This document shows, piece by piece, positions 10,511-31,958 of a DNA stretch of 64,000 bases. Each line of letters starts with the position of its first letter. Within the stretch, counting starts at the first letter, position 1. A model generated the notes under the pieces. That model worked only from the letters and a program-made list of their open reading frames with translations, did no database searches and was not told the DNA's origin. The translations under genes were made by a program, and so were the position numbers. The stretch is from the NCBI GenBank assembly GCA_018241765.1, contig JAFEDD010000002.1:62001-126000 (forward strand). The letters run 5' to 3'. Origin of the DNA: Pseudomonadota bacterium. Its GTDB lineage: Bacteria > Pseudomonadota > Gammaproteobacteria > Burkholderiales > Casimicrobiaceae.

Positions 10511-10588
10511 TCGATCGCCCGCATCCGCCTGATGGGAGCGGCAGTACGCCGCCCACAGGCCATCCTTGTCCCGACCGGAGAAGAACCG

Positions 10589-11790
<1,202 letters not shown>

Positions 11791-19864: not shown

Positions 19865-21274
19865 ATGACGGACGGCGCGGCACCATCGCGCTCGTGGCTG
19901 CGCTGGGTGGTGCTCGCCTGCGCCGTCGGCGCGCTCGGCGGCGGGCTCTGGTGGTGGCAGGCGCGCCCGACGCCGCCTGCGGTCGGCGGCGACGCCAGCG
20001 CCGTGGCGGGCAAGGGCGGGCCGGCGCCGGGTGCGGCGGGGCCGGGGCGCGGTGGAGGCCGTGGCGTGGTGCCGGCCGTGATCGATCAGGTGCGACGCAG
20101 TGATGTGCCGGTCATCGTCGGTGCGATCGGCACCGCGAGTGCGCCGGCGACGGCCGCCGTGCGCGCGCGGGTCGATGGCCTGCTGCTGGGTGTGGCCTTC
20201 CGCGAAGGGCAGTTGGTGCGGGCGGGCGACGTCATCGCGCGGCTCGACCCGGCACCGTATCGGGCCGCGCTCGAGCAGGTTCAGGCGCAGCTTGCCAAGG
20301 ACACGGCGCAGTTGGAGTCGGCCCGGACCGACCTCGTCCGCTATCGCAAACTGCTTGAGCAGGACAGCATCGCGAGCCAGCAGGTCGACACCCAGGCGGC
20401 TCTGGTCAAGCAGCTCGAGGCGACGGTTGCCGCCGATCGCGCGCAATTGGCCACGGCGCAGCTCAACCTCGGCTATACGCAGGTGACGGCGCCGATTGGG
20501 GGTCGCACCGGGTTGCGCCAGGTCGACCCGGGCAACATGGTGCGCGCGTCCGACGCCAACGGCATCGTCGTCATCACCGAAGTGCAGCCGATCGCCGTCG
20601 TGTTCTCCGTACCGCAGGAAGTGCTCCCCTCCGTGCTGGCCCGCATGGGCGCGGCTGGCGCGAAACCGCTCGCCGTGCAAGCGATCGACCGCGACGGCCG
20701 CACCGAGCTCGACCGCGGTGAACTGCTCGCCGTGGACAATCAGATCGACCCCGCCACCGGCACCGTCAAACTGAAAGCGATCTTTCCGAACCGCAACAAC
20801 CGGCTGTTCCCCAATCAGTTCGTCAACGTGCGGCTTGAACTGGAAACGCTCGAAGGCGCGCTGACGATCCCGCAGAGCGCCGTGCAGCGCGGCGCACCCG
20901 GCACCTTCGTGTATCTGGTGACGCCGGAGCAAACGGCGAGCGTGCGCCGGGTGCAACTCGGCGTGACGAGCGGCGACCGTGTCGTCGTCGCCAGCGGCCT
21001 CGATGCCGGCGATTCGATCGTCATCGACGGCGCCGACAAGCTGCGTGACGGCGCGGCCGTGACCTCCACGCAGGCGCCACCCCCGGCACGGCGCAGCGGG
21101 CCGCCCGGCGCCGGCAAGGCGGGCAACGGCAGCGGCGCGACCCGGGGCGCATCGACCGCGTCGACGGTGGCAGCGCCAGGTGCGGCGCCGCCGGGTCGCG
21201 AGCCGCCCGCAACGGGGGGCGCGACAGGCGAGCGCTCGCGCGGCGACGGTGCGGCCGCCGGCAAGCGACCCTGA
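19865..21274 (+). CDS. mdtA: RND efflux periplasmic adaptor, MdtA/MuxA type
   Basis: Membrane-fusion protein linking an RND pump to an outer-membrane channel. One N-terminal membrane anchor (about residues 12-35) is followed by biotinyl-lipoyl-like, alpha-hairpin (about 125-200) and beta-barrel domains. The last 60-70 residues are rich in Gly, Pro and Ala. First gene of a four-gene operon with two distinct RND pumps, the MdtABC/MuxABC arrangement, so an MdtA-type name is reasonable. ATG 19865 lacks a strong ribosome-binding site. No regulator gene is adjacent. Confidence 0.9.
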   Translation: MTDGAAPSRSWLRWVVLACAVGALGGGLWWWQARPTPPAVGGDASAVAGKGGPAPGAAGPGRGGGRGVVPAVIDQVRRSDVPVIVGAIGTASAPATAAVRARVDGLLLGVAFREGQLVRAGDVIARLDPAPYRAALEQVQAQLAKDTAQLESARTDLVRYRKLLEQDSIASQQVDTQAALVKQLEATVAADRAQLATAQLNLGYTQVTAPIGGRTGLRQVDPGNMVRASDANGIVVITEVQPIAVVFSVPQEVLPSVLARMGAAGAKPLAVQAIDRDGRTELDRGELLAVDNQIDPATGTVKLKAIFPNRNNRLFPNQFVNVRLELETLEGALTIPQSAVQRGAPGTFVYLVTPEQTASVRRVQLGVTSGDRVVVASGLDAGDSIVIDGADKLRDGAAVTSTQAPPPARRSGPPGAGKAGNGSGATRGASTASTVAAPGAAPPGREPPATGGATGERSRGDGAAAGKRP

Positions 21275-21301
21275 GCGCGACAGGAAACGGGGCGAGACGC
21301 C

Positions 21302-24300
21302 GTGAATCCCTGCGAACCGTTCATTCGGCGTCCCGTCGCCACCAGCCTCTTGATGCTCGCGATGTTCATCGTCGGCGTCATCGGCTATCGGCTGCTGCCG
21401 CAGTCGGCGCTGCCGCAGGTCGACTACCCGACCATCCGGGTCAGCACGCTCTATCCGGGCGCGAGCCCCGACGTCATCGCCTCCTCGATCACCGCGCCAC
21501 TGGAAAAGCAGTTTGGCCAGATGCCGGGGCTGGAGCAGATGTGGTCGACCAGCTCCGGCGGCGCCTCCGTCATCGCGCTGCGCTTTGCGCTCGACCTGCG
21601 CCTCGACATCGCCGAGCAGCAGGTGCAGGCTGCCATCAATGCGGCCACGACGCTGCTGCCCAACGACCTGCCGGCACCGCCCACCTACAACAAGGTCAAC
21701 CCGGCCGACGCACCCATCCTCACGCTCGCGCTGACCTCTGACACGTTGCCATTGCCGCGCGTGCAGGACCTGGCCGACACTCGCATCGCGCAGAAACTCT
21801 CGCAGGTCAATGGTGTCGGGTTGGTCACGCTCGCCGGCGGGCAGAAGCCCGCCGTCCGCATCCAGGTCGATCCGCGCGCGCTCGCCCAACTCGCGCTCTC
21901 GCTCGACGACATCCGCACCGTCATCGGCAACCAGAACGTCAATCAGGCCAAGGGCAGCTTCGATGGCCCGCTGCGCGCGAGCACCATCGACGCCAACGAC
22001 CAGCTCAAGGACGCCAACGAATACGCCAAGCTCGTGATCGCGTACCGCAATGGCGCCGCCGTGCGCCTGCGCGATGTTGCCGCCGTCGTCGACTCCGCCG
22101 AGAACATCCGGCTCGCGGCCTGGGCCACGCTCGACCGCGACGGCAAACGGTTGCAGCACCCCGGCATCATCATCAACGTGCAGCGGCAACCCGGCGCCAA
22201 CGTGATTCAGACGGCCGACGCCATCAAAGCCTTGCTGCCGCAATTGAAGGCGGCGTTGCCCGGCGCCGTCGATCTCACCATCCTCACCGATCGCACGGTC
22301 ACCATCCGCGCCTCGGTGCGTGACGTGCAGTACGAACTGCTGCTCGCCGTCGCCCTCGTCGTGCTCGTGATCTTTCTCTTTCTGCGCAGCCCGTCGGCCA
22401 CGCTGATCCCGAGCGTCGCGGTGCCGCTTTCGCTGGTTGGCACCTTTGCCGTGATGTACGGCATCGGCTTTTCGATCAACAACCTCTCGCTGATGGCGCT
22501 GACGATCGCCGCCGGCTTCGTCGTCGACGACGCCATCGTCATGATCGAGAACATCGCCCGTCGCATCGAGGACGGAGAGGCACCGTTCGCCGCCGCCATC
22601 CACGGCTCGAAGCAGATCGCCTTCACCATCGTCTCGCTGACCGTTTCGCTGCTTGCCGTGCTGATCCCGCTGCTGTTCATGCAGGATGTGGTCGGTCGGC
22701 TGTTTCGCGAATTCGCCATCACGCTCGCCATCGCCATCATCCTGTCCGCCTTCGTGTCGTTGACGCTGACCCCGATGATGTGCGCGCGACTGCTCACGAG
22801 CGAGCGCGAACGCGAGCGTCGCGCGCCGCGCTGGCTCGACGCCGTCGGGCGCAGCTATGACGCGCTGGCGGCGCTCTACGCACGCGCGCTCGACTGGGTG
22901 CTGGCGCGGCAGACGCTGACGCTCCTGATCGCCACCGCAACGGTGGCGCTGACCGTGCTCCTCGCATGGATCGTCCCGAAGGGGTTTTTTCCGGTGCAGG
23001 ATACGGGCACCCTCACCGCCATGACGGCGGCGCCGCAGAGCGTGTCCTTCGCGTCGATGAGCGAGCGGCAACAGGCGCTGGTCGATGCGCTGATGGCGGA
23101 TCCGGCCGTGCGCAGCATCTCTTCGATCATCGGCGTCGACGGCGTCAACGCGACGATCAATCAGGGGCGGTTGCAGATCGACCTGCAACCCTTGGAGAGC
23201 GGGCGTCCACGCGCTCAGGCGCTCATCGACCGGCTCAATGAGCGTGCACGGGTAGTGACCGGCATTTCGCTCGCGCTGCAACCCGTGCAGGATCTGACCA
23301 TCGACGATCGGGTTGCGCGCACGCAGTATCAATTCACGCTCGACAGCACGGACCCCGTCGCGCTCGGCGATTGGACGCCGCAACTGGTCGCCGCGCTGCA
23401 ACGATTGCCGCAGATCACCGACGTGTCGACGGAGCTGCAACGCGACGGCTTGCAGGCCTATGTGCAGATCGACCGTGACGCCGCCGCACGGCTCGGCGTC
23501 ACCGTTGCCGCCATCAACAGCGCGCTCTACAACGCCTACGGACAGCGGCTCATCTCGACCATCTTCACGCAGGCGAGCCAGTATCGTGTCGTGCTCGAAG
23601 TGCAGCCGCAATCGGGGCGTCCGGGGGGGGCGACGACGGGCCCGGACGCGATTGCGCAGCTCTACGTACCGGGGACGGTCGCCGGTGTCACCTCCCAGGT
23701 GCCGCTGGCGTCGGTTGCGCGGATCATCGAGCGCCCGGCCGAATTGCAGATCAACAAGTTGAACCAGTTCCCGGCGACGACCGTGTCATTCAACCTCGTG
23801 CGCGGTGTTTCGCTCGGCGAAGCGGTGCGCGCGATCGACGATGCCGCTGCCGCGCTCGCGATGCCGGCGAGCATCCGCATGCGCTTCCAGGGGGCGACCC
23901 TCGCCTTTCGTGCCGCGCTCGCCAACGAGGTCTGGCTCATCCTTGCGGCGATCCTGACGATGTACATCGTGTTGGGCGTGCTCTACGAGAGCTACATCCA
24001 CCCGATCACGATTCTGTCGACGCTGCCTTCGGCCGGCATCGGCGCGTTGCTCGCGCTGATGGTGTCAGGCAACGATCTCGGAGTCATCGCGATCATCGGC
24101 ATCGTGCTGCTGATCGGTATCGTGAAGAAAAACGCGATCATGATGGTCGACTTCGCGCTCGCCGCCGAGCGCGAGGAGGGCAAGACACCCTTCGACGCGA
24201 TTCGCCAGGCCTGCCTGTTGCGGCTGCGGCCGATTTTGATGACCACCATGGCGGCGCTCCTCGGCGCATTGCCGCTGATGCTCGGCAGCGGCATGGGCAG

Positions 24301-24454
24301 CGAACTGCGCCACCCTCTGGGCTGGACGATGGTCGGCGGGTTGCTCGTGAGCCAGGTGCTGACGCTCTTCACGACGCCGGTCATCTATCTGGCGTTCGAT
24401 CGTCTCGCGCGACGGTGGCGTGGCGCCGCCGTCGCATCGGTGGCGGCAGAGTAG
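21302..24454 (+). CDS. mdtB: RND efflux pump subunit, MdtB/MuxB type
   Basis: Inner-membrane proton-driven exporter of the HAE-1 family, 1050 residues with the expected twelve membrane spans and two large periplasmic loops. The paired aspartates of the proton relay are seen in span 4 ([14 protein letters not shown]). The start is GTG 21302, which gives the family N-terminus ([19 protein letters not shown]). It lies 27 nt after the adaptor gene and 3 nt before the second pump gene. In MdtABC and MuxABC systems the two pumps form a heterotrimer. Confidence 0.93.
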
Positions 24455-24457
24455 GTC

Positions 24458-27400
24458 ATGAATATCTCACGGCCGTTCATCGCGCGACCCGTAGCCTCCA
24501 CGCTGCTTTCGCTCGGCGTCGCACTGGCCGGTGTGCTTGCCTTTCTGCTGCTGCCGATCGCGCCGTTGCCGCAGGTCGAGTTTCCGGTCATCATGGTCAC
24601 GGCCAATCTGCCTGGAGCGAGTCCGGAAACGATGGCCGCGACCGTGGCGACGCCGCTCGAGCGGGCACTCGGGACGATCGCCGGTGTCAACGAGATCACG
24701 TCGTCGAGTTCGCTGTCGTCGACTCGCGTCGTGCTGCAATTCGATCTCGGCAAGAACATCGATAGCGCAGCGCGCGAAGTGCAGGCTGCGATCAACGCCG
24801 CGCGGGCGACGCTGCCGAGTGGCCTGCCGGGCAATCCGGTCTATCGCAAGGCCAACCCCGCCGACGCACCCGTGATGATCATCTCGCTGACGTCGAAGTC
24901 GTTGTCGCGGGGCCAGATGTATGACGTGGCCTCGACGGTGCTCGCGCAGCGCATCTCTCAGATCGAAGGGGTCGGCAACGTCAACGTCGGCGGTGGCGCA
25001 TTGCCTGCCGTTCGCGTCGCGCTCGACCTGCCGACGCTTGCGGCGACGGGTGTGGCGCTCGAAGATGTGCGCGCCGCCATCGTCAACAACAACGTCAACC
25101 GACCCAAGGGAATCGTCGAGATCGGCGAGCGGCAGTGGCAGATCGGTGCCAACGATCAGGCGAAACGCGCGAGCGAGTATTTGCCGCTGGTCGTGAGCTG
25201 GAAGAATGGCGCAGCGCTGCGACTGGCCGATGTCGCCGATGTCACCGATGGCGTGCAGGACGCGCGCAACATGGGGCTCACCGATGGCGAGCCCTCGGTG
25301 CAACTGGTCGTCTATCGGCAACCGGGCGCCAACATTCTCGACACGGTGGAACGCGTCAAGGCGTTGTTGCCCCGACTGCAGCAGACGATCCCCGAGGCCA
25401 TCGACATGCAGTTGGTCATGGAGCGCACGACGACGATCCGCGCATCACTGCGCGAAGTGGAACGCGCACTCGCCATTGCCATCTCGTTGGTCGTGGTCGT
25501 CGTGTTCGCCTTCTTGCGCAGTGGCCGGGCAACGATCATCCCGGCGATCTCGGTGCCTTTGTCGCTGCTGGGCACCTTTGTCGCCATGTATTTGCTTGGC
25601 TACAGCCTGAACAATCTGTCGCTGATGGCGCTCACCATTGCCACCGGCTTCGTCGTCGACGATGCCATCGTCGTGCTCGAGAACATCATGCGGCACATCG
25701 AGGAAGGCATGCGGCCGTTCGATGCGGCGCTGCGCGGCGCCCGTGAAGTGGGCTTCACGGTGCTCTCGATGAGCCTTTCGCTGATCGCGGTGTTCATCCC
25801 GATTCTCGCCATGGGGGGCATCGTCGGCCGTCTGTTCCGGGAATTCGCGGTGACGTTGTCGGTGGCGATTCTCGTCTCGCTCGTGGTGTCGCTGACGGTG
25901 ACGCCGATGCTCTGCGCGCACTGGTTGCGGCGTGGGCGGTTGCCTGATTCAGACGTTGCGCCTGCACGTGGCGTGTTCGCGCGCATGCAACGTGGCTACG
26001 CTCGCTCGCTCGGCTGGGCGCTGCGCCATCCGGCGCTGATTCTCGGGGCGCTGGCGCTCACCATTGCGGCCAACGTCTGGCTCTATCGGGAAATACCGAA
26101 GGGGTTCTTTCCGCAGCAGGACACCGGGTTGATGATGGGTTTCATCCAGGCCGATCAGGCAACGTCGTTCCAGTCGATGAGCCAGAAGGTGTCTCGCTTC
26201 GTCGAGATCGTGCGGCAGGATCCGGCGGTCGCGCACGTGACGGCCTTCACCGGGGGCGGACAGCGCAATTCGGGGTTCATGTTCGTCGTGCTGAAGCCGC
26301 TGCGCGAACGCGGCGCGACGGCCGATGACATCAGCAATCGGCTGCGTCCGAAGACGGCGCAGGTGGCAGGCGCGTCGTTGTTTCTGGTGGCTGCTCAGGA
26401 CTTGCGCGTCGGCGGTCGCCAAAGCAATGCGCAGTATCAATACACGTTGCAGTCGGATGATCTCGCTTTGCTGCGCCAGTGGGAGCCGGCGATCCGGGCA
26501 ACGCTCAGCACGCTGCCCGAGCTGACCGACGTCAACACCGACGCCCAGGACAAGGGATTGCAAACCTCACTGACGCTCGATCGCGATGCCATGGCGCGTC
26601 TGGGCGTGACCGTGCGCAACGTCGACGCAACATTGAACGATGCGTACGGGCAACGACAGATCGCGACGCTCTATGAACCGCTCAACCAGTATCGCGTCGT
26701 CATGGAGGCCAGGAGTCGGTTTCTGCAGGACGCCGGCTCGTTGCGCAATGTCTACCTGAGCGGCAGCGGGGGGCGCCAGATCCCGCTTGCGGAAGTGGCC
26801 ACCGTCGCACCGACCAGCACGCCGCTGGCGGTCAACCATCAGGGGCAGTTCGCGGCGAGCACCGTGTCGTTCAATCTGGCGCCGGATGTGTCGATCGGGC
26901 AGGCGACGGCGGCGGTGGATGCCGCACTCGCGCGGATCGGTGTCCCGAGCGCGGTGACCGCGAGCTTTCAGGGCAGCGCCAAGCTGTTCCAGCAGTCGCT
27001 GTCGAGCCAGCCGCTGCTGATACTCGCGGCGCTGGTGAGCATCTACCTCGTTCTCGGCATGCTCTACGAGAGCCTCGTGCATCCGCTGACGATTCTCTCG
27101 ACGCTGCCCTCGGCCGGCGTCGGGGCGGTGTTGGCGCTGATGATGTTCAAGATGGAATTCAGCCTGATCGCGCTGATCGGCGTCATTTTGCTGATCGGCA
27201 TCGTCAAGAAGAACGCGATCATGATGGTCGATGTCGCCATCGCGACGGAGCGACACGAGGGGCTCGATCCGCGCGAGGCGATTCACCGCGCCTGTCTGCT
27301 GCGGTTCCGTCCGATCATGATGACGACGGTGGCCGCCCTGTTCGGTGCCTTGCCGCTCGCTCTGGGCTCCGGTGACGGCGCCGAACTGCGACAACCGCTT

Positions 27401-27562
27401 GGCGTATCCATCGTCGGCGGCCTGATCCTATCCCAATTGCTGACGCTCTACACGACTCCGGTCGTCTATCTCGCCCTGGACCGCCTGCGCAATCGCGTCA
27501 TGCGCCGAGGGACATCGGTCCCCACCCTGCTTGCGGCGGCCACGGCGCGCGGCGAAGATTGA
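24458..27562 (+). CDS. mdtC: RND efflux pump subunit, MdtC/MuxC type
   Basis: Second HAE-1 family pump of the operon, 1034 residues, clearly related to but distinct from the preceding gene product. It carries the same proton-relay pair ([14 protein letters not shown]) and the family N-terminus [18 protein letters not shown]. It starts 3 nt after mdtB, indicating coupled translation. Expected partner of MdtB in a heteromeric pump; in E. coli and Pseudomonas such systems export bile salts, novobiocin and related compounds, but the local substrate is not known. Confidence 0.93.
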
Positions 27563-27574
27563 ACTTTGAACCTC

Positions 27575-28987
27575 ATGGCCATCACCCGACATCTCCTGCC
27601 ATGGCTTGGCGCGGTCTCGTTGCTCGCCGCGTGCGCACCGCTCGGCCCCGACTACCAGCGACCATCGTTTCTGCCCGCTGGCGGCGCGAGCGCCGAGCAG
27701 GCGGCGCTCGTCCGCTACAAGGAAGCCGCGGCGTTGCTGCAACCGGTAACGACGGCCGTGCCAGCGAGGGCGTGGTGGCAGGAGTTTGCCGATCCGACGC
27801 TCGATGCGATGATGGGCGAGCTGATTGCAAACAACCCGACCCTTGCGCAGGCCGCAGCGCGCGAACGACAGGCACAGGCGACTCTGGTGCAGGCGCGTTC
27901 GGCGCGCGTCCCGACGTTGGGCGGCAACCTTGCCGTCACCCGCAGCTCCCAACCCGGCGTCGGAGGCCGCACGACCATGACGGGCACGAGCCTCGGTCTT
28001 GCTGCCAGTTGGGAGGTCGATCTGTGGGGACGGGTGCGGCGTACCATCGAAGCGGGCGAAGCCAGTGCAACGGCGAGCAAGGCTGATTTCGACGCGGCAA
28101 CGCTCAGCATGCGCGCACAGTTGGTGACGGCGTACGGCAACCTTCGTGCGCTCGATGCCCAGGCGGCGTTGCTCGACGAGGTCGTCGTCGCCTATGAGCG
28201 CACGCTCTCGCTGACGCGCAACCGATATGAGGCGGGCGTTGCGGCACGGGCGGACGTCGCGCAGGCAGAGTTGCAATGGCTCAACGCAAAAGCTCAGCGC
28301 ATCGACGGCGACAGCCAACGCGCCGCGCTGGAGCACGCAATGGCCGTGCTGCTCGGACGCCCGCCTTCCGCATTCTCGCTGCCTCGGGTGGGGCAGTTCA
28401 CGCTGGCGGTGCCGCCCGTTGCCGCGTCACTGCCGTCGGAACTGCTCCGGCGCCGTCCGGATATCGTGGCGGCTGAAAGGCGGGTGGCTGCGGCGAACGC
28501 GCAGATCGGCATCGCGGTCGCAGCCTGGTACCCGACGCTCAGCCTGAGCGGTTCGTTCGGTGAGCGCGGCACGACGCTGGCCGATCTCGCCGCGTTGCCG
28601 AACCGAATCTGGTCGCTCGGGCCGGCGCTCGCGCTGTCGCTCTTCGATGGCGGCGCGCGAGATGGCGCTCGCGCTCAAGCGATGGCGGCTTATGACCAGA
28701 CAGCTGCATCCTACCGCCAAACCGTGCTGTCCGCACTGGCCGATGTCGAGGACAACCTTGCCGCGCGTCGCGTGCTGGTCGAGGAGATGGAAGTGCAGCG
28801 CGAAGCCGTGCGCGCCGCCCAGCAGGCGTTGACCATCGCCCTGAACCAGTACAAGGCGGGTACCGTGAGTTATCTCAATGTGGTGACGGCGCAAACCGCC
28901 GAGTACACGGCGCGGCGCAGCGAAATCGCGCTTCGCGCACAGTTCTTTGCGACCACGGTGTCGTTGCTCCGGGCGCTCGGCGGCTGA
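27575..28987 (+). CDS. Outer-membrane efflux lipoprotein, NodT/OprM family
   Basis: TolC-like outer-membrane channel of the RND system. The N-terminus carries a signal peptide with lipobox LAAC (C20 from ATG 27575). Two repeated outer-membrane-efflux domains follow (about 60-250 and 270-465), including the typical LRRRPDIVAAERRVAAANAQIG segment. ATG 27575 is chosen; a TTG at 27566 is also in frame. It begins 12 nt after mdtC, completing the export complex within one operon. Confidence 0.93.
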   Translation: MAITRHLLPWLGAVSLLAACAPLGPDYQRPSFLPAGGASAEQAALVRYKEAAALLQPVTTAVPARAWWQEFADPTLDAMMGELIANNPTLAQAAARERQAQATLVQARSARVPTLGGNLAVTRSSQPGVGGRTTMTGTSLGLAASWEVDLWGRVRRTIEAGEASATASKADFDAATLSMRAQLVTAYGNLRALDAQAALLDEVVVAYERTLSLTRNRYEAGVAARADVAQAELQWLNAKAQRIDGDSQRAALEHAMAVLLGRPPSAFSLPRVGQFTLAVPPVAASLPSELLRRRPDIVAAERRVAAANAQIGIAVAAWYPTLSLSGSFGERGTTLADLAALPNRIWSLGPALALSLFDGGARDGARAQAMAAYDQTAASYRQTVLSALADVEDNLAARRVLVEEMEVQREAVRAAQQALTIALNQYKAGTVSYLNVVTAQTAEYTARRSEIALRAQFFATTVSLLRALGG

Positions 28988-29022
28988 CAATGTCATCAGG
29001 AAGAGACACGTCGGCGCTGGCG

Positions 29023-29047
29023 AAAAAAAAGCCCGCGCAGGGCGGGC
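29023..29047 (-). terminator. Intrinsic terminator on the minus strand
   Basis: Read on the minus strand, GCCCGC-ccctgc-type stem-loop (29047 to 29031) is followed by eight T residues (29030 to 29023). The stem pairs 29031-29036 with 29042-29047. It ends the candidate small RNA below and may also stop transcripts from the Spy-like gene. On the plus strand the A run precedes the stem, so it is unlikely to serve the RND operon. Confidence 0.85.
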
Positions 29048-29140
29048 GTGAGGCCTTTGAGACCTGATAAGACCGGAGGTGTATCGAGGGGGTGGTCTCA
29101 AAGGTACATACCCAGGTAGAGAAGTCAGCCAAGGCATGCG
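29023..29140 (-). ncRNA. Candidate stand-alone small RNA with anti-Shine-Dalgarno loop
   Basis: The minus strand between the RND operon and the Spy-like gene carries a complete small-RNA unit: a near-consensus promoter (29147-29175), a predicted start near 29140, a perfect 11-bp stem (29094-29104 paired with 29054-29064) and an intrinsic terminator. The 29-nt loop (29065-29093) contains CACCTCC (29081 to 29075) and a C-rich ACCCCCTC, both able to pair with ribosome-binding sites. An ATG near 29137 opens a frame through the stem and terminator, but its codon content is unconvincing and the hairpin and terminator argue against coding. I cannot assign it to a named RNA family. Confidence 0.7.
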
Positions 29141-29146
29141 GATAGC

Positions 29147-29175
29147 ATATTAGCGCTTGCGTATGACGTTGTCAA
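29147..29175 (-). promoter_or_regulatory. Sigma-70-type promoter for the small RNA
   Basis: On the minus strand the -35 hexamer is TTGACA (29175 to 29170) and the -10 hexamer is TAATAT (29152 to 29147), separated by exactly 17 nt. This is the best consensus-like promoter I found in the window. It lies just after the stop codon of the Spy-like gene (29198) and points at the small RNA, not at a recognised protein gene. Confidence 0.75.
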
Positions 29176-29197
29176 GCCTTCATACGGAGTGCTTCGC

Positions 29198-29695
29198 TCA
29201 GCCACCATGCCGTTTCGCGAACTGTTCACGCAGTGCCTCGGCGCGGGTGACACGCTCGAGCAGTTGTGCGCGGATGAGTGACTTCTGCTCGACGCTGAGC
29301 AACTGCGTGAACTTCACCCACTCGCGGATGGCCGTCTTTCGCTCGCTCGCCGACCGTTCCGCGAATTCGTCGCGCATGTTCAGCAGGCGTTCGAAATCCG
29401 GTTCGGCCTTGGATAGCTCGGCCTTCGCTGCTTCCGCAGCCGCGGTGCGACCGCGCCGTGCCGCGTCGTTGGCTTTCACCGTCGCCTTGAGCGCAGCGGT
29501 GTACTGCGCGTCCTGTTCGGCATTCAGTTTCAGTTTCGCCTTGACCGCCGCGAAGTAATTGCCGTAGGGCAGGCCGATGGGGGGCATGCCGGGCGGTACC
29601 TGCGCGAGGCCTGTGCTCGCGGTCAGGGCAAAGGCGAACGCGGACGCCGCGGTAGCGAGCATGGTGCGGACCGGTTGGATGTGGGTGGCGCGCAT
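29198..29695 (-). CDS. Spy/LTXXQ-like periplasmic protein
   Basis: A 165-residue secreted protein with a signal peptide (basic start, hydrophobic stretch, cleavage near GLAQ). The mature part is almost wholly alpha-helical and rich in Ala, Lys, Glu and Arg, with features like EQKSLIRAQLLERVTRAEALREQFAKR. It resembles periplasmic helical chaperones of the Spy/CpxP (LTXXQ) class, though the motif itself is not exact. ATG 29695 has a GAGGGA ribosome-binding site. It is divergent from ompR across 147 bp, which suggests envelope-stress control by that system; this is inference. Confidence 0.65.
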   Translation of the reverse strand: MRATHIQPVRTMLATAASAFAFALTASTGLAQVPPGMPPIGLPYGNYFAAVKAKLKLNAEQDAQYTAALKATVKANDAARRGRTAAAEAAKAELSKAEPDFERLLNMRDEFAERSASERKTAIREWVKFTQLLSVEQKSLIRAQLLERVTRAEALREQFAKRHGG

Positions 29696-29786
29696 GATGG
29701 TTTCCCTCGGTATTTCAGGTCGGTCGATGTTGTGTTGCCTGAATTGTGCTGCAACCGACCCGACACTCCCGTCTGGCGCGCTGCGT

Positions 29787-29801: not shown

Positions 29802-29842
29802 GGGCGGCTCCGCGAAGCCACCCCGTCTGGTATGTTTGCGTG

Positions 29843-30550
29843 ATGAGCAATGCAGCGCACATTCTCATCGTTGACGATGACCAGCGTCTGCGCGATCTGC
29901 TGCAACGCTATCTCGCCGAGCAGGGATTCCGCGTCACCGGGTTGGCTGATGCCCGCGAACTGTCGCGTCGCCTCGACCGCGATCCGCCGCATCTGATCGT
30001 GCTCGACTGGATGATGCCGCATGAGGATGGCATCGCGGTGTGTCGGCGACTGCGTGCCAGCGGAGATCACACGCCCGTCATCATGCTCACGGCCAAGGGC
30101 GAGGAAGACGAGCGCATCGACGGGCTCGAGGCCGGCGCCGACGACTATCTGCCAAAACCGTTCAACCCGCGCGAACTGGTCGCACGCATCCAGGCCGTGC
30201 TGCGCCGCGCGGCCGTGGCGGCCCCGGGGGCACCGGAGCCGAGCGACGGTCCGGTACGCTTTTCCGATTGTGCGGTCGACTTCACGACACGCACCGTGAC
30301 TCGGGCCGGAGTCGTGCAGGAGTTGACCACGAGCGAATTCGCCATGCTCAAGGTGTTCTTGACGCACCCGCACGAGGCGCTTTCACGTGAGCGGTTGTCG
30401 CTGCTGGCGCGTGGCAAGGAGCATGAGGTGTTTGATCGGGCCGTCGACGTGCAGGTTTCGCGGCTGCGCAAGCTGGTCGAGCCGGATCCGGCCAAGCCTC
30501 GCTACATCCAGACCGTTTGGGGGCGTGGTTATGTGTTCGTCCCGGACTGA
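29843..30550 (+). CDS. ompR: Two-component response regulator OmpR
   Basis: DNA-binding response regulator with a receiver domain (about 6-120; phosphoacceptor D55 in VLDWMMP, acidic pair D11-D12, K near 104) and a winged-helix C-terminal domain ending RYIQTVWGRGYVFVPD. The sequence is close to E. coli OmpR throughout. 235 residues from ATG 29843; a GTG directly before it is also in frame. No ribosome-binding site is visible, and a TG-G-TATGTT extended -10 at 29828-29836 would place the start of transcription almost on the ATG, so a leaderless mRNA is possible. It is followed 16 nt later by its sensor kinase. Confidence 0.95.
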   Translation: MSNAAHILIVDDDQRLRDLLQRYLAEQGFRVTGLADARELSRRLDRDPPHLIVLDWMMPHEDGIAVCRRLRASGDHTPVIMLTAKGEEDERIDGLEAGADDYLPKPFNPRELVARIQAVLRRAAVAAPGAPEPSDGPVRFSDCAVDFTTRTVTRAGVVQELTTSEFAMLKVFLTHPHEALSRERLSLLARGKEHEVFDRAVDVQVSRLRKLVEPDPAKPRYIQTVWGRGYVFVPD

Positions 30551-30566: not shown

Positions 30567-31958
30567 ATGTGGTCGCCCGCACCGAAGAGCCTGTTCTGGC
30601 GCATGGCGTGGTTGCTGCTTGCGGCGGTCGCGCTCGCCGTGGTGGCGATCGTGTTGCTGTTTCGACAGGACCGCGCAGGCCTGATCGCGCGCAACCTGAC
30701 CGAAGCGAAGATCGCGCAGGTTGAAGCATTGCGCGACGCGTTGAACGCCCGTCTGGCGGAAGGGCCTGCGGCCCGGCCGCTGACCGGGTTGTCGGCCATT
30801 GCCCGGCAGTATGGCGTGTTGCTGGTTCCGGTAGAGCGGCGCCCCGAGATTGGTCAGCCGCCACGCGGTCAGGGCCTGCGCGCGCTGGTGGAAAAACTGC
30901 AGGAACAGCTGGGCCGCGACACGGAAGTGCGCCTGGGCATGCGCATGGACCAGCCGGTGGTGTGGATTCGCCTGCGTATCGGCTCGGAACCGAACGTGCG
31001 TGCGGTTTGGGCTGGTATTCCGATTCGCAGGATGGATGCCGACGAAGTGCCGCTTCGACTATGGATGGCGCTTGCGGGCGTTCTCGCGCTGTTGCTGGCG
31101 GCAACCTATGCCTTTGCGCGGAAGCTGACCACACCGCTCGCCGAGCTTGCCGATGCCGTCGACATGGTCGCTGAAGGCAAACGACCGGATCCGCTGCCTG
31201 AGGACGGACCGGAGGAAATTTCGCGGGTCGCACGCAATGTCAACCGAATGGCCGTCAATCTCGATCGGCTCGAACGAGACCGTAGCACGATGTTGGCGGG
31301 CATCTCGCACGATATCCGGACACCGCTCACGCGTCTTCGGCTGGCGAGTGAACTTGCAGTCGCCGATGCGCGCAGCCGCGAGGAGATGGCGGCCGACATC
31401 GACGAAATCGATCGCATCGTGACGCAGTTCCTCGACTTTGCAAGAGGAGTGCCCGAAGCGCCGCCGCCGATCGTCGATCTGACCGCAGTTGCCGAGGAAG
31501 TCGCAGCGAGGGCCGCTACGAGAGATCTGCCGGTGCAATGGCAGCGGCCGCCAGGTGTGCTGTGCGCGGCCGTGCACGCCGCAGCGTTCGAACGGATGCT
31601 TCTCAATCTGATCGAAAACGCCCATCGCTACGGTCGACCGCCCGTCATCCTGCAGATGGATGGCCGCGGCGACACCGTGGTCATCGAGGTGCTCGATTCA
31701 GGGTCGGGGATCGCGGCATCGGACGTCGAGCGACTCAAGCAACCCTTCGTGCGGGGTGATCATGCGCGTGGCGGCGTGATGGGCGCCGGACTCGGCCTTG
31801 CCATCGTCGAGCGTCTGGCGCAGTGTTATCAGGGCCGATTCGAGCTGTTGCCCCGCACGGTCGGTGGCACGACCGCGCGCATCTCACTGCCGATGGCCCA
31901 CGCGGACGTGAGCAGTGGAGGGGCCGCCGTTCAGCCAAACAGCGGCAGCGTCGCGTAG
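30567..31958 (+). CDS. envZ: Sensor histidine kinase EnvZ
   Basis: Membrane kinase partner of OmpR. Two membrane spans (about residues 12-33 and 165-187) enclose a periplasmic domain, followed by HAMP (about 188-240), the phosphorylated histidine H248 in GISHDIRTPLTRLR, and an ATP-binding domain with N-box NLIENAHRYG and glycine loops. 463 residues, normal for the family. Its 3' end overlaps the convergent DUF1501 gene by 28 bp. Confidence 0.94.
   Translation: MWSPAPKSLFWRMAWLLLAAVALAVVAIVLLFRQDRAGLIARNLTEAKIAQVEALRDALNARLAEGPAARPLTGLSAIARQYGVLLVPVERRPEIGQPPRGQGLRALVEKLQEQLGRDTEVRLGMRMDQPVVWIRLRIGSEPNVRAVWAGIPIRRMDADEVPLRLWMALAGVLALLLAATYAFARKLTTPLAELADAVDMVAEGKRPDPLPEDGPEEISRVARNVNRMAVNLDRLERDRSTMLAGISHDIRTPLTRLRLASELAVADARSREEMAADIDEIDRIVTQFLDFARGVPEAPPPIVDLTAVAEEVAARAATRDLPVQWQRPPGVLCAAVHAAAFERMLLNLIENAHRYGRPPVILQMDGRGDTVVIEVLDSGSGIAASDVERLKQPFVRGDHARGGVMGAGLGLAIVERLAQCYQGRFELLPRTVGGTTARISLPMAHADVSSGGAAVQPNSGSVA

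Follow-up and report, generated by a model that had tools for sequence, protein, structure and literature searches.

In the present study, we analysed a stretch of 64,000 nt (the window) and found on its minus strand what is almost certainly the gene of a genuine small RNA family without prior description. Judged from sequence comparison, the gene has so far been found in one genus of Burkholderiales. The explanation that we consider best, at somewhat better than even confidence, is that the RNA is made from its own promoter and uses its loop to block ribosome-binding sites, probably together with Hfq, with a Spy-like gene as one of its targets. The new elements are the RNA family and the complementarity between its loop and the Spy-like gene; the mode of action is already known from other RNAs.

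The unit was read directly on the minus strand. A -35 element TTGACA (29170..29175) and a -10 element TAATAT (29147..29152), separated by a 17-nt spacer, precede a predicted RNA of about 118 nt (29023..29140), the start of which was inferred from the -10 element. The RNA is predicted to form a 5' hairpin of variable sequence (29106..29139), a central hairpin (29054..29104) and an intrinsic terminator (29023..29047), in which a GC stem (29047-29031) is followed by eight T residues (29030-29023). In the central hairpin, the arms CCTTTGAGACC (29104-29094) and GGTCTCAAAGG (29064-29054) form an unbroken 11-bp stem around a 29-nt loop (29093-29065). The core CCACCCCCTCGATACACCTCCGGTCTTATCAGG (29063..29095) was the same in 15 genomes save for one C more or less, and the anti-Shine-Dalgarno motif CACCUCC (29075..29081, CACCTCC in DNA) lies inside the central loop. 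The TTGACA-N17-TAATAT promoter, the CACCTCC loop and the GC stem with eight T residues, all reported in the initial annotation, were found in place. The perfect 11-bp stem with a 29-nt loop, also reported there, holds for the window; among the relatives, the stem is unbroken in G003 only.

A promoter scan of 28500-29700 returned the RNA's promoter as the sole match, with 0.2 expected, and a terminator scan of the same stretch gave 1 match against 0.9 expected, which alone is not above chance. The 118-nt RNA folded at -45 kcal/mol (z = -5.3), and none of 200 shuffles was equally stable. The sequence CACCTCCGG, with at most one mismatch, occurred 21 times in the window and 20.5 times in shuffles, indicating no enrichment. 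As chance alone would be expected to yield terminator-like sites in the scanned stretch, the unit could be viewed as a fortuitous mix of promoter-like and terminator-like sequence. This view was refuted by conservation and covariation over 16 genomes and has virtually no probability left, because the unit recurs in 16 of the 17 genomes of the genus while its flanks sit at shuffled identity.

The distribution of the RNA was narrow in each search. When 60 related genomes were searched at the DNA level, 15 gave matches, the window's own included, all belonging to one genus. With a covariance model built on the hairpin (R1), a single copy each was detected in 16/17 genomes of the genus and, with stricter filters, no copy in 47 other genomes of the family. 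Six sister genera gave no copy of the RNA. A broader model (R2), applied across the order with stricter filters, matched 6 of 399 genomes, all in this genus. An exact 25-base pattern retrieved 13 records from a collection of 84,980 species; all were metagenome-assembled, with titles naming Betaproteobacteria, Burkholderiales or Pseudomonadota. The RNA was not matched in the phages and plasmids searched. G016 (97% complete) held no credible copy, and its weak model match (E 2.9) was taken as chance. The copy in G009 (L032 1453-1583) was divergent, with a shorter loop in which CACUUCC replaces CACCUCC, and occupied another genomic site, between molybdopterin oxidoreductase-like and CheA/ChpA-like genes (named by reading). 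A second model match in this genome (E 4.3) was rejected as chance. The covariance-model search thus bore out the earlier expectation of a stem conserved as structure in the relatives, with CACCUCC kept in the loop of 15/16 copies.

We then compared the promoters and folds of the 16 copies. The -35 element was TTGACA in 15 of them and TTGACG in G009; the -10 element was TAATAT in 14 and TACTAT and TACAGT in the other two; the spacer was 17 nt in 15. All 16 copies, 112-131 nt in length, folded as a 5' hairpin, a central hairpin and a terminator. The terminator stem and T-run were present throughout, with a C interrupting the T-run in L007, L008 and L032. The 5' hairpins shared little sequence, and each was on average stabler than its own shuffles (z -1.5 to -5.0). 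The central hairpin alone had z values between -0.5 and -3.7, several copies being not clearly stabler than shuffled sequence. The central stem was supported by covariation: 8 of its 11 pairs showed changes on both sides, so that the arms vary with the compensation demanded of a real stem, and the covariation score was 0.233 against 0.110 in shuffles, none of 500 reaching it. Shuffles were also exceeded by four whole-structure measures, which 0, 2, 0 and 0 of 500 reached, but not by the count of further pair types (209 of 500), and the signal was lost when the pairing partner was slid. Two middle pairs of the stem were open in 7 of 11 distinct sequences, the window copy being among the 11. The inner seven-pair helix of the loop was invariant, so it was neither supported nor refuted by the covariation count; the G009 loop folded without this small helix, two of its bases being missing and another changed. 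Upstream of the promoter no sequence was conserved, which leaves regulation of the RNA by OmpR without support. Directly after the -10 element, TAATATGACATC or a close variant was common in L002-L010 and L032 and absent in the window. The G009 version contains the palindrome ATGACGTCAT, and the element could be an operator.

To locate the conserved part, pairwise identities were calculated for 14 of the 16 sequences (91 pairs), L003 and L010 being left out as near duplicates. Identity was 0.96 in the loop (0.51 shuffled), 0.54 in the 5' hairpin (0.47), 0.63 and 0.67 in the stem arms (0.40 and 0.43), 0.61 in the promoter (0.49) and 0.78 in the terminator (0.49); the upstream and downstream flanks both stood at 0.50 (0.48 shuffled in each case). 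This profile indicated that the loop is the constrained part of the RNA. The CACCUCC motif is not absolute, given its one replacement, and the core ends CCACC and UAUCAGG are equally invariant, yet occur in none of the predicted spy helices. Loop length differed by one base among copies, which speaks against a coding gene. A contiguous conserved loop on a freely changing scaffold would also be expected of a protein binding site, and the conservation might reflect such a protein or another RNA for which the loop acts as a sponge. We consider this improbable, since no second RNA with long complementarity was found in 17 genomes and the complementarity to spy would stay unexplained. An antisense partner was rejected: a 19-base complement of the core, with at most three mismatches, was found in the 17 genomes as the gene itself in 15, plus five scattered, imperfect sites in G009, G010, G014, G013 and G006, and a reversed control pattern gave seven.

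The gene neighbourhood placed the RNA next to an envelope-related locus. A gene for a 165-aa Spy/CpxP-like protein (29198..29695, minus strand), the proposed target, has its stop codon 22 nt from the RNA's -35 element. Divergent from it is an OmpR-type response regulator gene (29840..30550, plus strand; NF007005 OmpR, 349 bits, cut-off 331), and on the same strand as the latter is a gene for an EnvZ-like sensor kinase (30567..31958), the best match of which was NF007004 EnvZ at 275 bits, below the cut-off of 415. Among 15 Spy-like orthologues, 12 matched Pfam Metal_resist (best E 3.9e-8) and 12 matched LTXXQ (best E 6.3e-7) at a threshold of E 0.01; we take the LTXXQ family to include CpxP and Spy. 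The window's own protein reached 28.0 bits for Metal_resist, under the cut-off of 29.2, and a sequence search against solved structures gave no credible match, the best being thioredoxin (E 0.036). The RNA lies 3' of the Spy/CpxP-like gene on the same strand in 13/16 genomes; G003 and G008 have the Spy-like/ompR pair on the same contig as the RNA, about 16 kb away.

With this arrangement, the RNA might be taken for the 3' untranslated region of the Spy-like mRNA together with its terminator, rather than for a separate gene; in the window and 3/12 other genomes, a search of the stretch from the Spy-like stop codon to the RNA promoter found no terminator. We regard this as very improbable. All 16 copies retain the promoter, a few of them with minor changes, and it is present in G003, G008 and G009, where the RNA is not beside the Spy-like gene. 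Moreover, the Spy-like gene has a separate terminator before the RNA that is strong in 7/13 genomes and weaker in two, the window being one of the four with none found. A role as leader or attenuator was rejected for the 11/16 loci with a recognised downstream neighbour, since the neighbour faces the RNA in all 11. This neighbour is an efflux operon or a BepA-like protease gene (the latter under its cut-off) in 10 of the 16 loci and a CheA-like gene in G009. In the window, an MdtC-like efflux operon (19865-28987, plus strand) lies between the RNA and the BepA-like gene. The BepA-like gene follows directly after the RNA in five relatives (G010, G002, G011, G007 and G003), indicating that the MdtC-like operon was gained or lost at this site.

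The Spy hypothesis was formed after inspection of several gene families, and it was evaluated by the best contiguous helix energy between the loop and the 22 bases before each start codon. Spy-like start codons were picked by eye; for background genes, the start with the best 16S pairing was taken, a choice that is biased towards strong sites and also admits miscalled starts. The target test and its controls used the five-C loop for all genomes, and an earlier pairing run used each genome's own loop length in 13 genomes. RNA duplex folding without a seed constraint gave uninformative energies. For the Spy-like gene, the mean over 15 genomes was -14.0 kcal/mol, with 11 genomes at -13.3 or lower. 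Loops in which CACCUCC was kept and the rest shuffled had a mean of -11.05 (sd 0.74); none of 1000 was as low as the Spy-like mean, and 2/1000 reached the count of 11 genomes. When the means of eight lineages were used, 3/2000 shuffles were as low, and 12/2000 when the lineage with a 10-bp match, that of G014, was removed; the lineage groups were set by eye, and a later tree of the 15 proteins agreed with them. Only 10 of 172 background genes lay at -13.3 or lower, one of the ten being G003's Spy-like gene, the inclusion of which makes the comparison conservative. With the background restricted to genes with 16S pairing at -7.6 or lower, the count was 8/76. The control families showed no excess: as many as 373 of 500 shuffles were as low for ompR (n=15), 437 for envZ (n=11), 493 for DUF1501 (n=3) and 173 for porins (n=29 start regions, from loci covering 69/70 porin matches, one G006 fragment being left out).

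The manner of pairing was also examined. In the window, CGAGGG in the ribosome-binding region of the Spy-like gene (29704..29709, minus strand) is complementary to CCCUCG of the core. The loop segments used vary by lineage (CCCUCG, CUCCGGU, ACCUCCG and GAUACACCUC), which makes a single shared accident less likely. The signal was kept where the gene is about 16 kb from the RNA (G008, -15.1; G003, -14.4 with wobble pairs), and the loop paired better than the 16S tail in 12/15 genomes. Four of the 15 genomes fitted poorly: in G005, G012 and G006 the pairing involves only GGAGG(U) and is predicted to be weaker than that of the 16S tail, and in G013 there is almost no pairing (-8.6). Taken on sequence complementarity, the Spy-like gene appears to be the best-supported target of the RNA, short of proof.

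Alternatively, the RNA may act broadly, as an anti-Shine-Dalgarno RNA on many mRNAs, for example those of transporters, in which case the Spy-like match is incidental or one of dozens. That a loop of about 30 nt hardly varies suggests numerous partners, many targets are described for known RNAs of the kind in the accessible portions of two reports (PMC10746234, PMC11722255), and trpB in the window also has an 8-bp loop match. We nevertheless consider this reading unlikely, though worth keeping in mind, because the excess seen for the Spy-like gene is absent in the four control families and in the background genes (-9.08 against -9.48 shuffled, n=172), and because narrow searches with strict patterns showed no recurring target among the sites read. 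In those searches, the patterns CCGGAGGTG, GGAGGTGTA and CGAGGGGTG occurred shortly before ATG at 87, 19 and 44 sites, and their reversed controls at 30, 16 and 8; this excess is not specific, since ribosome-binding sites are themselves G-rich. Inspection of 79/150 sites as loci yielded one related pair only, the ATG of which lay within a longer frame. Among the sites read in the pattern searches of the genus genomes, there was no target to which the complementarity is long or strictly conserved. The region before trpB (10567-10588, plus strand; start at 10589, named by reading) contains GACCGGAG, the 8-bp complement of the loop, and trpB is a possible second target. A tandem porin pair recurs in the genus (L180, L172, L184 and others); the leader of the first gene is nearly constant, with ACTGAGGAGAGACTG or a close variant before its ATG.

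Under the preferred reading, that of a loop RNA acting on ribosome-binding sites with the Spy-like gene among its targets, a sigma-70-type promoter would give rise to a three-hairpin RNA of about 118 nt. The 5' hairpin and stem arms would form a freely changing scaffold, and the C-rich middle loop would be the working part. The loop, probably with Hfq, would pair with G-rich ribosome-binding sites of mRNAs and block ribosome entry; repression by occlusion of these sites is the likely mode of action. The RNA would thereby hold down an envelope-stress protein of Spy/CpxP type, encoded beside an OmpR/EnvZ-type system, and probably further mRNAs too. Hfq is encoded in 16/17 genomes and was not found in G006 (90% complete). 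The U8 tail suits Hfq, which probably takes part in the action of the RNA. ProQ, named as a candidate partner in the initial annotation, is unlikely, as none of the 17 genomes gave a match.

More speculatively, and at less than even confidence, the RNA might be a dedicated arm of an envelope response that is linked to EnvZ/OmpR in Burkholderiales. Transcribed from its own promoter in the neighbourhood of the Spy/CpxP-type gene, it would feed back on that gene, the mRNA site drifting along an unchanging loop while pairing is kept, in parallel to CpxP/CpxQ and with a separate origin. If the Spy-like link is true, a second lineage has evolved non-coding control next to genes of CpxP/Spy type, and the drift of the site shows how a loop can stay invariant without losing a partner whose target site shifts. 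The work adds a well-supported RNA family to a lineage with 13 named records, every one of them metagenome-assembled, and the Spy-like gene offers a concrete target for testing.

Comparison with known families supported the earlier claim that a small RNA not described before is encoded here under its own promoter, as the unit is conserved and no Rfam cut-off was reached. For the window and 15 related loci (L002-L015 and L032), Rfam 15 gave no match at the gathering cut-off. The best sub-threshold match was anti-hemB (RF02837; 19.1 bits, cut-off 49.5); RF02278 (betaproteobacterial toxic small RNA/S17) scored 11.2 bits (cut-off 50) and RF02344 (alpha-r14) 13.4 bits (cut-off 58.8). No publication on this RNA was among the matches listed in searches for anti-Shine-Dalgarno RNAs and Spy/CpxP small RNAs, which covered open-licence literature and not subscription journals. 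By sequence, the RNA shares with the anti-Shine-Dalgarno kind its own promoter, an intrinsic terminator and a conserved loop complementary to ribosome-binding sites. RNAs with exposed CCUCC had been noted as known in alphaproteobacteria; this is correct, but the available parts of the literature place them in betaproteobacteria too (PMC10117139, PMC5688073, PMC11722255).

Several of these systems resemble the new RNA in part. From what the accessible text of the reports describes, S17 of Bordetella and bdhR1/ncS27 of Burkholderia are betaproteobacterial RNAs with an invariant 27-nt stretch that starts in a C/U-rich loop, a predicted block of ribosome binding and a terminator (PMC11722255, PMC5688073). 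The new RNA is likewise betaproteobacterial, with an invariant C-rich loop stretch, a predicted ribosome block and a terminator. It differs in its large loop on a covarying stem, S17 being compared by description, whereas, in the same partial sources, RNase E releases the short form of S17 from a longer transcript, and its neighbouring genes are different ones. NfeR1/alpha-r14, in the portion of the report available, is an alphaproteobacterial, Hfq-independent RNA of about 120 nt that has three hairpins, a conserved anti-Shine-Dalgarno motif and changeable stems and represses at ribosome-binding sites (PMC10746234). Size, hairpin number, motif and variable stems are shared; unlike the new RNA, which has one CACCUCC in one loop, alpha-r14 is described there with CCUCCUCCC in all three hairpins. 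Anti-hemB (Burkholderia RNA 7) also has CCUCC in a hairpin loop, a spacer and a terminator, but its C-run lies mostly in a stem, whereas that of the new RNA lies in the loop. NcS25 of Burkholderia cenocepacia, according to an excerpt of its report, uses a single-stranded 7-nt segment to complement the Shine-Dalgarno site of an envelope target (PMC10117139). A single-stranded anti-Shine-Dalgarno segment and a proposed envelope target are common to both RNAs; the NcS25 target, compared by description, is a porin, and porins showed no excess here.

In the passages available, CpxQ derives from the cpxP 3' end and is linked to an envelope two-component system (PMC9438474), and OppZ and CarZ repress the gene that they lie behind (PMC7398697). 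The new RNA resembles CpxQ in its position 3' of a CpxP-type gene tied to an envelope two-component system, and OppZ and CarZ in the proposed repression of the gene just upstream. Unlike the new RNA with its own promoter, all three are described in these passages as products of RNase E cleavage of the parental mRNA, and the CpxQ targets listed there are other mRNAs, in contrast to the Spy-like target proposed here. Within locus L014, positions 1252-1318 gave sub-threshold Rfam matches to Hrs13 (21.4 bits) and rsmX (21.1 bits); the stretch resembles a terminator and follows the Spy-like gene, and the matches are probably due to chance.
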